The position numbers and the translations under genes are program-made. The notes under the pieces were generated by a model. The model ran no database searches. It was not told the origin of the DNA and saw only the letters and a list, made by a program, of their open reading frames with translations. Source: Bacteroidales bacterium (GTDB taxonomy: Bacteria > Bacteroidota > Bacteroidia > Bacteroidales > P3). Taken from it: a stretch of 64,000 nucleotides of DNA. Positions 30,337 to 35,083 of the stretch are shown piece by piece. Each line of letters opens with the position of its first letter. Position 1 is the first letter of the stretch. The stretch is taken from positions 1-64,000 of the forward strand of contig JAEEHQ010000003.1 in NCBI GenBank assembly GCA_016280915.1, in the 5' to 3' direction.

Positions 30337-31116
30337 CTACCTTTCGGCAACGACATATTTCTTTCCCAGCATATTCAGCTGTAGGCAGAGACCCAGGTTC
30401 AAGTATTTGAAGTCTATCAAACTGGCCTGTATCAGCACATGTTGCCACAGCAGGGCATCTGCTCCAATCAGAAACTCGTTACCCATGTATTCCACAATGG
30501 CACGTCCCTGAGGAAAGAAGGCAGGCCTAAAGGATAGTCCCCCCACCAGTCCGCTCCATTTGTCGTTGTAATTGCGAAAATAGTGTCGGTAGGCTAAGTT
30601 CACCCCCAGTTCGTTGCCCCCGAAGCCAAAGTGCTTGGTGGCAGCAACGTAGATGTTGGTGAAATAGAGTTGTACATCAGTCCTTTCTTTGTTGAAGGCG
30701 GTGGTGCCCACGTCGTTGAAACCGATGGCTACGGCTGGATGGTATCTGCCCTCTCGGAGTGGTCTGATTTTGATGGAGGCGTAGCGGTCCTTGCGCCAAA
30801 AGCCAACCTCACCAGTCACCGCGCGGGTGTCTTTTCTTCGGGTGGAGGTGAAGCTCAGCTCTATCCATTCGAATGGGGTGATGCCCAGATAGAAGTCGTA
30901 GGTGTTGTATTTCTCGCCTTGAAAGAGAAAACCTGTGTCGGGCAGGAGGGCTTTGTTCAGGTAGTGGACACCCATGCGGGCATCGCCCTCGTGACTCATT
31001 TCGGCCGATGGGATGTGTAGAAAACCTGAAGTGCCGTTGTATTGTTGGGCGTGGCTTAAACTTGGCAGCAGCACCATGGCGGCCAGTAGGATGTAGCTTA
31101 TTTTTATGCGTTTCAT
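30337..31116 (-). CDS. YjbH-like outer-membrane protein, N-terminal-type part
   Basis: About 259 residues from the ATG at 31116, which overlaps the upstream stop as ATGA. Signal peptide ending 'SLSHAQ', then 'GTSGFLHIPSAEMSHEGD', which resembles the N-terminal repeat start of YjbH-family exopolysaccharide export proteins. Alternating strands through the rest fit a beta-barrel. The second gene of a translationally coupled pair; its partner resembles the other half of YjbH. Placement in the outer membrane is inferred. Confidence 0.6.
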   Translation of the reverse strand: MKRIKISYILLAAMVLLPSLSHAQQYNGTSGFLHIPSAEMSHEGDARMGVHYLNKALLPDTGFLFQGEKYNTYDFYLGITPFEWIELSFTSTRRKDTRAVTGEVGFWRKDRYASIKIRPLREGRYHPAVAIGFNDVGTTAFNKERTDVQLYFTNIYVAATKHFGFGGNELGVNLAYRHYFRNYNDKWSGLVGGLSFRPAFFPQGRAIVEYMGNEFLIGADALLWQHVLIQASLIDFKYLNLGLCLQLNMLGKKYVVAER

Positions 31117-32084
31117 TCTGTTTCCTCCTTTCCTTTGTAGATGAAGTCGGGTTCCATCGTGTGGCTGCCCCATTTTAGCAAGTCGCGGCTGAACCAGCCG
31201 TCGCGCATATTTTCCTCAGGGTCGGTGTAGTAGAGCTGGTTGGCATCGCGGTATTGGGCCATGCCCCTCACCAGATAGGTAAGGCTATAATGGGAGGCCG
31301 GCCGGAAATTGACCGTACGGTGGGTCCGCTTGTAGGGTGGCAGCATGATGGTCACCTTAAAGCCACCGTCCATGCCCTTTGCCAGCGATTGCGTCAGGGA
31401 CACACCCTCCTGACCCAGCTGTCCGGCAATGTTGTTCCATTTGGCGTAGAGCCCCACCGTCGCATGGTTGAAATGGCGCATGGCCTCGGCCTGGAATCCC
31501 CAGTCGGTGTAGACATATTTGCCCACAACGCCCCGCAGCTGGGTGTTCCAGCGCGAAAGGTAGATGTCGCCGCCCACCGTGCCGGTGAAACGGCCCATCG
31601 GACTCATGCCCCAGCCTCCGGCCATGGTGAGTAGGCCGGTGAGCCCTGCCTGGGCCTCAAAGGCCAGCCATGGGGTTACAGGCAGGAAGGCTTTCAGGTC
31701 AAATCCGTAGCGGGAATTGCTGAAAGCTCCCACACTCCCTTTCAGGTAGACCGGACCTGCCTTCAGCTCCTTGCTCAGCACCAGCATGCTGGGGTAAAAG
31801 CGACGCACATCGTTGCTCAGCTGGTTGATGACGGTCAGTCGGGCTTGACCTGCCAATTGCCAGTGGTTGCCCATATTCCATTTAAAACCCGGGGTGAGGT
31901 TGAACACCACGTTGTACTTTTGGTAGAAGTAAAAGTCATACAACCCCACCTCAAAACCTGAAAAGAAGTCGATGCTGGGCTTCTCACTTTGTCCCCACGA
32001 CCGCTGGGGCCCCGACATCAGCAGCACCGCCAGCACGATGCCCATCAGGCAATTTCGACGAAAGATTGAATAGTTGTGTTTCAC
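31113..32084 (-). CDS. YjbH-like outer-membrane protein, C-terminal-type part
   Basis: About 323 residues if the GTG at 32084 is used (giving 'KHNYSIFRRNC' plus a hydrophobic stretch ending 'RSWGQ', a sensible signal peptide); the ATG at 32045 is the alternative. Strand-rich, with 'VGKYVYTDWGFQAEAMRHF' and 'VGLYAKWNNI', recalling the second half of YjbH, where a barrel precedes a 'G.YLA.D.G' motif. Coupled by ATGA overlap to the YjbH N-type gene downstream. Probable role in surface polysaccharide export; not certain. Confidence 0.55.
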   Translation of the reverse strand: MKHNYSIFRRNCLMGIVLAVLLMSGPQRSWGQSEKPSIDFFSGFEVGLYDFYFYQKYNVVFNLTPGFKWNMGNHWQLAGQARLTVINQLSNDVRRFYPSMLVLSKELKAGPVYLKGSVGAFSNSRYGFDLKAFLPVTPWLAFEAQAGLTGLLTMAGGWGMSPMGRFTGTVGGDIYLSRWNTQLRGVVGKYVYTDWGFQAEAMRHFNHATVGLYAKWNNIAGQLGQEGVSLTQSLAKGMDGGFKVTIMLPPYKRTHRTVNFRPASHYSLTYLVRGMAQYRDANQLYYTDPEENMRDGWFSRDLLKWGSHTMEPDFIYKGKEETE

Positions 32085-32485
32085 AGGAGTGTCCTTTTTT
32101 TGTGCACCCAGCTCCAGCCAGCTGTTGACCAAGGACCGGATGCATTGTTGTTTTTGGGTAATATGTAGTATATTTGTCGTTTTTATTTGTCTTTTTATTT
32201 CTATAACGCAAAAAACACTTTTTTATTGCCATTCCCAATGGAAGAGTGTTTATTTGATAATGTTTAGAGTTATATGTAAATCCGTGTGACATATAAAGCA
32301 AGCTTCTGCTTGACTATTGCTGTCATCTGCTGGATAGGAGCTTCGCATTGGGTTTGAGACAATGTACGGCTGACAAAATGTCTTGAGTTGCTTTGTTTTG
32401 AGACTCTCCGGCTGACAATTTGTCTATTGGGCCGTGCTGGTGTATTTGTTGATAGATGGATGTTCAATAAAAAAACTATTGCATT
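32085..32485. other. Divergent intergenic region before clpB
   Basis: About 400 bases without a convincing gene. It holds a hairpin CAAGC ttct GCTTG (from about 32300) and two 11-bp palindromes listed separately. TGTATTTG near 32438 is a weak -7 candidate for clpB. Confidence 0.45.
32372..32424. promoter_or_regulatory. Tandem palindromes upstream of clpB (possible stress operators)
   Basis: CGGCTGACAAAATGTC (palindrome GACA aaa TGTC, 32372-32382) and CGGCTGACAATTTGTC (GACA att TGTC, 32414-32424) are near-identical sites whose centres are 42 bp apart, four helical turns. Position 60-115 bases before a chaperone gene suggests a heat- or stress-responsive binding site. The binding protein is unknown. 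Confidence 0.55.
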
Positions 32486-35083
32486 ATGAACTTGAACAAT
32501 TTTACCATTAAGGCTCAGGAGGCCGTGCAGAAGGCACAGGAGATAGCCATAGGGAATCAGAACCAGGCTATCGAGACCTGCCACCTGCTGAAGGGCATCC
32601 TGACAGAGGATGAGAACGTTACGCCTTATCTTCTCAAGAAGATGGAGGTGAACACGGCACGCCTCTCGCAGCAGGTGGATGCCTTCATTGGCAGGCTGCC
32701 CAGGGTGAGTGGCGGTGACCAGTATTTGAGCAGCGACGCCAATCAGGCTTTGGTGAAGGCCGCCCAGACGGCCCAGAAGATGGGCGATGAATTTGTGTCG
32801 ATAGAGCATCTGTTGATTGGCTTACTGTCGGGCCGTGATGCCATTGCCCAGTTGATGAAGGATGCCGGCGTGAGCGAGAAGTCGCTTTTGGCAGCTATTG
32901 CCGACCTGCGTAAGGGCAGCAAGGTGGCCAGCCAGAGTGCCGAGGACAACTACAATAGCCTGAACAAGTACGCCAAAAACCTCAACCAGTTGGCTCAGAA
33001 CGGCAAACTGGATCCCGTTATCGGCCGTGACGAGGAGATACGCCGTGTGCTGCAAATCCTTTCGCGCCGCACAAAGAACAACCCCATTCTGATTGGCGAA
33101 CCCGGCGTGGGCAAGACGGCCATAGCAGAAGGGTTGGCAAGGCGTATCATTTCGGGCGATGTGCCTGAGAATTTGAAAAACAAGACTATCTATAGTTTGG
33201 ATATGGGTGCCTTGGTGGCCGGTGCTAAGTATAAGGGCGAGTTTGAGGAACGACTAAAAAGCGTTATCCAAGAGGTGGAGAAGAGCGACGGCAACATTGT
33301 CCTCTTTATCGATGAGATACACACCCTGGTGGGTGCCGGCGGCGGTGAGGGCGCCATGGATGCGGCCAATATCTTGAAGCCCGCCTTGGCACGTGGCGAG
33401 CTGAGGGCCATTGGTGCTACCACGCTGGCCGAGTATCAGAAGTATTTTGAGAAAGACAAGGCTTTGGAACGCCGTTTCCAGAGTGTGCTTATCGACGAGC
33501 CGAGTGTGGAAGACACCATCAGTATTCTGCGTGGCTTGAAGGAACGTTATGAGGTGCACCACAAGGTGCGTATCAAGGACGATGCCCTGATTGCGGCTGC
33601 CGAGCTGAGCAACCGCTATATAAGCAATAGGTTTCTGCCGGACAAGGCTATCGACCTGATTGATGAGGCGGCCGCCAAGCTGCGTATAGAGATTGACTCG
33701 GTGCCCGAAGAGCTGGATGAGATTGAACACCGCATCCGTCAGCTGGAGATTGAACGCGAGGCCATCAAGCGCGAGAATGACCAGGACAAGCTGTCGCAAC
33801 TGAACAAGGAGCTGGGCGAACTGGGCGAGCAACGCGACCAGATGAAGGCCCGCTGGCAGAACGAGAAGAGTGTGGTGGAGGCTATCCAGACAGAGGTGAA
33901 GAACATCGAGTCGTACAAGTTGGAAGCCGAGCAGGCCGAACGTGCCGGCGACTATGGCAAGGTGGCAGAGCTGCGCTACGGCCGCATCAAGGAGGCCGAG
34001 AAGAAGGTTTCAGACTTGAAGATTCAGCTGAAGCAACTGCAGGCAGACAATGCCATGATTAACGAGGAGGTTGATTCGGACCAGGTGGCCGAGGTGGTCT
34101 CGCGTTGGACGGGCATTCCCGTAACGCGCATGATGCAGAGCGAGCGCGAGCGTTTGCTCCACCTCGAAGAGGAGTTGCATAAGCGCGTGGTGGGTCAGGA
34201 TGAAGCTATCAGCACGATTGCCAATGCCATCCGTCGTAGCCGGACAGGACTAAGTGACGGTCGCCGTCCTATAGGCAGTTTCATCTTCTTGGGTACCACC
34301 GGCGTAGGTAAGACCGAACTGGCCAAGGCCCTGGCAGAGGTGATGTTTGACGATGAGGATATGATGGTGCGTATAGATATGAGTGAGTATCAGGAGCGCC
34401 ACAGCGTGTCGCGACTCATTGGTGCGCCTCCGGGATATGTGGGTTATGACGAGAGCGGTCAGCTTACTGAGGCCGTGCGCCGCAAGCCCTACAGTATCGT
34501 GCTGTTTGATGAGATTGAAAAGGCGCATCCCGATGTGTTTAACATCCTGCTGCAGGTGCTGGAAGATGGCCGACTGACCGACAACAAGGGACGTGTGGCC
34601 GACTTTAAGAACACCATCATTATCATGACCTCTAATATGGGTAGCGAGCTTATCCGCGAACGCTTGGAGGGTAATGAGAGCTTCACCGAGTATGAGCTCG
34701 AGGAAACTAAGAATGCTGTGATGGAGTTGCTGAAGCAGAAGCTGCGTCCTGAGTTTCTGAACCGTATCGACGAGACCATCATGTTCCGCCCGCTCACCAA
34801 GTCGCAGATTCGTGAGGTGGTGAAGATTCAGCTGAACAATGTGAGCAAGATGCTGGAGAAAAACGATATCCTGATTAGTGCTACCGACGAGGCTGTCGAC
34901 CACTTGGCCGACATTGGGTATGACCCCGCAATGGGTGCCCGTCCGGTGAAACGTGTCATCCAGCGCGAAATCCTCAACGAGCTTTCGCGGCAGATTCTTG
35001 AAGAACGGATCAAGACCAGCGACACGATTATCATTGATGTGATAGACAATCAGTTTGTGTTCTACAACCCTAAAGCCAATTAA
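32486..35083 (+). CDS. clpB: Disaggregase chaperone ClpB
   Basis: An 865-residue AAA+ protein. N-terminal Clp repeat domain (1-150), NBD1 with Walker A 'GEPGVGKTA' near residue 205 and '[13 protein letters not shown]', a coiled-coil M-domain about 400-530 that marks ClpB rather than ClpA/C, and NBD2 with Walker A 'GTTGVGKTE' near 603 and '[13 protein letters not shown]'. Acts with DnaK to resolve protein aggregates after heat stress. Full length, monocistronic, ended by a strong terminator. Confidence 0.97.

Follow-up and report, generated by a model that had tools for sequence, protein, structure and literature searches.

Paired palindromes upstream of clpB as probable activator sites of a sigma-54-dependent chaperone regulon in Bacteroidales

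In the 64-kb stretch of Bacteroidales DNA analysed here (the window), two palindromes precede clpB, and a sigma-54 (-24/-12) promoter element sits 13 bp 3' of the second of them, so the dyads are most likely sigma-54 activator sites. Based on sequence comparison, we believe with a probability of about 0.85 that they serve a sigma-54-dependent clpB promoter within a chaperone regulon that extends over the Bacteroidota and is driven by EBP-B, a receiver-less AAA+/Fis sigma-54 activator, and EBP-B is the likely activator of the clpB promoter in the window itself.

Bacteroidota are a dominant phylum of the human gut, and their chaperone control is poorly described. Sigma-54 promoters of chaperone genes are known or predicted in this phylum. 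With an operator of strict geometry now defined, and a near-universal candidate activator, the question of what switches these promoters on becomes testable, and dyads lying so close to the promoter and in phase with it could also show if activation is possible by a sigma-54 activator placed almost beside the polymerase.

The clpB promoter region

The clpB gene (32486-35083, forward strand, ATG at 32486) encodes a full-length ClpB of 865 aa, which scores 1309.5 bits on TIGR03346 against a cut-off of 1232.1. Its divergent neighbour (31113-32132, reverse strand) encodes a 339-aa protein with no Pfam or NCBIfam match. As the first-pass annotation had noted, CGGCTGACA-N3-TGTC is found twice before clpB, 42 bp apart from start to start: the distal dyad GACAAAATGTC is at 32372-32382 and the proximal dyad GACAATTTGTC at 32414-32424, both on the forward strand. 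The spacing equals four helical turns, which agrees with the further claim that both sites lie on the same helical face. In their extended forms (CGGCTGACAAAATGTC at 32367-32382 and CGGCTGACAATTTGTC at 32409-32424, forward strand), both dyads contain a perfect CGGCTGACANNNTGTC, and these are the only two perfect copies in the window. Across the 3.02-Mb genome there are six copies of CTGACANNNTGTC. Three are intragenic, and the others are the pair before clpB and a single copy upstream of htpG, which by itself suggests an operator of chaperone genes. On its own the bare core GACANNNTGTC carries little weight, with 4 occurrences in the window against 1.1 expected, and a motif expected about once per window could in principle be a palindrome that arose by chance or belong to some unrelated DNA element. 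It is the pairing, position and conservation of the copies before clpB that lift the core above chance; together with the phasing and the specificity for chaperone genes described below, these comparative data refute the chance explanation, to which we give almost no weight.

Sigma-54 promoters are recognised by a GG and a -12 dinucleotide 10 bp apart, and transcription starts about 12 bp after the -12 element. The element in the window, TGGTGTATTTGTTGA (32438-32452, forward strand), was identified from the sequence and as part of a composite match, and from this standard geometry the clpB transcription start is predicted at about 32464. Relative to the -24 element, the distal and proximal dyads lie 55 and 13 bp 5', which puts their centres at about -87 and -45. 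In a set of 80 clpB genes taken from named genomes, of which nearly all are Bacteroidota, the 220 bp before the gene contained TGG-N8-TTG in 75 of the 80, while other spacings from N3 to N15 occurred in 3-8 and the opposite strand gave 1-7. The spacing that characterises a sigma-54 promoter is conserved in orthologous clpB promoters.

Other types of control were also considered. A site search for CIRCE (TTAGCACTC-N9-GAGTGCTAA) found nothing in the window even when 3 mismatches were allowed, as the first-pass annotation had stated, and HrcA/CIRCE control of this clpB was rejected on that ground. By eye, the HspR/HAIR repeat CTTGAGT-N7-ACTCAAG is represented upstream of clpB by a lone CTTGAGT at 32382-32388 that has no inverted partner. 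A scan for sigma-70 type promoters, whose scope lay outside the Bacteroides housekeeping consensus, returned one weak match at 32232-32261, which is at chance level. The annotation had proposed a different stress regulator that binds as two cooperating dimers. The part of this proposal that stands is that the dyads are a conserved regulatory element of clpB and other chaperone genes; it overlooked the sigma-54 promoter, next to which they most probably serve as sites for a sigma-54 activator. The suggested two-dimer binding is compatible with the way such activators assemble.

Dyad geometry and helical phasing

When one mismatch was allowed, the dyad with its N3 spacer occurred 86 times in the 80 clpB upstream regions, compared with 1-16 times for control dyads with other spacers and 5 times for swapped arms. 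The distances from dyad to -24 element are clustered (12-14, 23-24, 34, 43-47, 53-56, 66, 74-76, 86 and 95 bp), and the two dyads of a pair are usually separated by 31-33, 40-43 or 63 bp. The best-fitting period of the dyad-promoter distances is 10.4 bp (R = 0.91, N = 80 sites; the highest R among 20,000 uniform random sets was 0.38), with R = 0.83 for the distal dyads alone, and because the loci are related by descent these statistics are a measure of strong conservation and not of 80 independent events. The commonest proximal distance is 13 bp (25/45 proximal sites) and, across 75 clpB promoters, the commonest distal distance is 53-56 bp, so the pair in the window (13 and 55 bp) matches the most frequent value at both positions. 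In relatives, dyads with an A/T centre are phased (R = 0.73, N = 63) and those with other centres are not (R = 0.10, N = 42), which suggests that the A/T centre is part of the signal.

Enhancers of sigma-54 promoters usually lie about 80-150 bp upstream of the start. Mostly paired dyads in helical phase with the promoter, as observed here, are expected of an enhancer; in the window the distal site, at about -87, is within the usual range and the proximal site, at about -45, is nearer than usual. A recognisable dyad is absent from 15 of the 75 clpB promoters that bear the sigma-54 element, suggesting that the operator can be degenerate or replaced. In genus g54 (L316, L317, L319), where EBP-B is divergent, two clpB genes have a dyad only some 2 bp from the -24 element, which is nearer than the usual 13 bp by roughly a helical turn.

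Palindromes near promoters are often repressor sites, and the dyads might instead be operators through which RprY or another heat-shock repressor blocks the promoter until stress. A sigma-54 promoter requires an activator anyway, and phased sites out to 86-95 bp upstream suit an activator that contacts polymerase better than they suit occlusion. The precedent comes from P. gingivalis, where the response regulator RprY bound the clpB, groES and dnaK promoters, which are targets shared with the system described here, in gel-shift experiments, and repression was proposed (PMC3646045). That study defined no binding site (the terms 'motif', 'consensus' and 'binding site' each have 0 occurrences in the paper), and the htpG promoter was not bound by RprY, although htpG has the dyad both in the window's genome and in relatives. 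Overall we judge a repressor to be an improbable explanation and continue with the dyads as activator sites.

The operator at other chaperone genes

Among 31 genomes of the order, 30 contain a composite of dyad and promoter element, with about 100 matches against about 8 in the reversed control, some of the matches being intragenic noise. The genes that follow the composites are mainly grpE (repeatedly), clpB, htpG, groES, dnaK, lon and hsp20, and they also include rsfS and outer-membrane efflux genes; the identity of representatives was established. The sites therefore precede clpB of relatives as well as other chaperone genes, which is the opposite of the result that the first-pass annotation named as refuting its reading. 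As the same operator-promoter unit is found before grpE, groES, dnaK, htpG, lon and hsp20 in relatives, we infer that it defines a sigma-54 chaperone regulon.

In the window's own genome we covered the chaperone upstream regions of clpB, htpG, groES and grpE. Besides clpB, a composite is present at htpG, whose identity was confirmed and whose sigma-54 element is TTGGCATTGTTTTTG, and weaker dyads are present at the other two genes. The groES element, TTTGGCACGGTTTATG, has a one-mismatch dyad 35 bp upstream, and by eye the grpE element, TTGGCACAGAAAGTGA, has a one-mismatch dyad, GACAAATTGGC, 14 bp upstream. In relatives, a -24/-12-like element was found in 25/29 grpE and 25/28 groES upstream regions; the grpE dyads are mostly 13-15 bp from the promoter element, and those of groES are mostly at 12-14, 23-24 and 34-35 bp. 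Across the class, the strict composite occurs in 25 of 148 genomes with one match in the reversed control, and a version in which the -24/-12 spacing is off by 1 bp was found in none of the 148.

Some composites precede genes of other kinds. Two lie before outer-membrane efflux genes (PF02321; L161 in G014 and L173 in G008), and the regulon may thus reach the envelope. Another lies before a gene for a baeRF release-factor-like protein (PF18845; L187, 370-1473, forward strand, in G027), and one lies before a gene for a 116-aa protein with no Pfam match (L183, 456-803, forward strand, in G021).

A candidate activator, EBP-B

An enhancer-binding protein is indispensable for the opening of a sigma-54 promoter. 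EBP-B (L267, 1501-2790) has the domains expected of one: a sigma-54 interaction AAA+ domain (PF00158, 221 bits) with a GAFTGA-type loop, a lid, and a Fis-type HTH (PF02954, 47 bits). The domain search detected no receiver or other recognised sensor domain in it. GxFTGA is present in 50/50 readable copies, and the recognition helix is nearly invariant. At a strict threshold, a single copy of EBP-B was found in 141 of the 148 genomes drawn from the class, and its gene mostly follows miaB and precedes lptE; in the window's genome it is instead located between dnaG and aroA. One genus (4 genomes) appeared to lack the protein, with no match at E <= 1e-90, and at a relaxed threshold each of them yielded a divergent copy. 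The three genomes of this genus with a readable clpB upstream region keep a sigma-54-like element, so the genus is not discriminating as a natural test.

In the 18 congeners searched, all of which carry composites, exactly one sigma-54 activator per genome was detected, EBP-B; several of these genomes are at least 97% complete and several are incomplete. The search was loose enough to catch the second activator of the window's genome (1.6e-65). Given that sigma-54 needs an activator and EBP-B is the only one detected in the congeners, it is the best candidate for the protein that binds the dyads; the argument rests on the congeners because the window's genome holds that second activator.

The second activator, L115 (6439-8692, reverse strand, at the end of contig G000:C102), has a receiver-AAA+-HTH architecture and is partnered by a histidine kinase. 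Its gene belongs to the same assembly, and the protein has a Fis-type HTH besides its sigma-54 interaction domain, so the promoter could be a real sigma-54 promoter whose dyads are bound here by L115. We think this very unlikely: L115 was not found in any of the 18 congeners that keep the composites, and its loop reads GAFTDA instead of GAFTGA. L115 may have been acquired, or its contig may be a binning error. EBP-B is accordingly preferred in what follows.

Proposed mechanism

The promoter, the dyads, their phasing, the target genes and the single detectable activator of each congener are read directly from sequence. In the mechanism that we propose from them, an EBP-B dimer would bind each GACA-WWW-TGTC dyad, the clpB dyads, centred near -45 and -87, sharing one face of the helix with respect to the promoter. 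The AAA+ domains would form a ring and contact sigma-54 at -24/-12, and ATP hydrolysis by the ring would open the clpB promoter. Such a sigma-54 chaperone regulon would take the place of sigma-32 or HrcA control. Induction would be by misfolded protein, and because EBP-B has no recognised sensor domain, sensing would probably occur in trans. The linker between the AAA+ and DNA-binding domains is variable and has one conserved amphipathic stretch, where, we speculate, a partner protein might plausibly exert control.

A wider and more tentative reading, which we find possible and would put at rather less than even odds, joins these elements into a phylum-wide Bacteroidota heat-shock regulon with EBP-B as its one activator, close phased sites and sensing in trans. 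EBP-B would then bind GWCA-WWW-TGWC dyads whose rotational phase is strict and whose distance from the -24 element can be as short as one or two helical turns, and sites this close would need little or no DNA looping. A chaperone, for example, might hold the conserved linker helix (SEREILYKVLFDMKKD-type) until it is titrated by unfolded protein.

Relation to known systems

The PspF/phage-shock regulon of E. coli is likewise a stress-type regulon with a receiver-less activator, and the AAA+ domain of EBP-B aligns with structures of PspF as well as of ZraR, NtrC1 and NifA. EBP-B nevertheless scores too low for the PspF model, with 248.4 bits on TIGR02974 against a cut-off of 443.55, and it falls below every curated cut-off among the 25 NCBIfam matches listed. 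The proposed EBP-B system would target cytosolic chaperones through a different operator, and its nearest dyads are much closer to the promoter than PspF sites are. HrcA/CIRCE and sigma-32 systems act on the same chaperone genes, but here CIRCE is absent from the window, clpB has a -24/-12 promoter and control would be by activation.

Sigma-54 chaperone promoters as such are known. In F. psychrophilum, starts of the sigma-54 type (SM4) were mapped at groESL, lon, dnaK, grpE-dnaJ, htpG and clpB, and three PF00158 proteins were considered as the possible activator without a choice between them (PMC9723704). The likeness to our system is the -24/-12 element at chaperone genes together with an EBP-lptE pair, which lies four locus tags from groES; the main text of that study is without an operator dyad or phasing (PMC9723704). 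A position-matrix study predicts sigma-54 control of chaperones across Bacteroidota and cites an earlier reference for sigma-54-dependent grpE/groES; its accessible text relies on promoter matrices only and gives no activator or operator for the chaperone genes (PMC12316311). The operator, its helical phasing and the assignment of the activator were not found in the literature that we searched, and the dyad as a bacterial heat-shock site did not appear in titles and abstracts, which is weak evidence given that supplements and many journals lay outside the search.

The rpoN gene

The gene for sigma-54 itself, rpoN, was found in 49/51 genomes, that is, in the window's genome and in 48 of the 50 others. 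In the window's genus the reading frame continues beyond the RpoN box through a stretch that resembles a signal peptide and through an M23 peptidase domain, giving long open frames of 755-856 aa compared with about 490 aa elsewhere. In the window's genome the long frame is L345 (2499-4988, forward strand, contig G000:C4), and long frames were also observed in G001, G002 and G010 (see also L346 and L347). The extended gene could encode a membrane-tethered sigma-54, or two proteins could be made from one frame.
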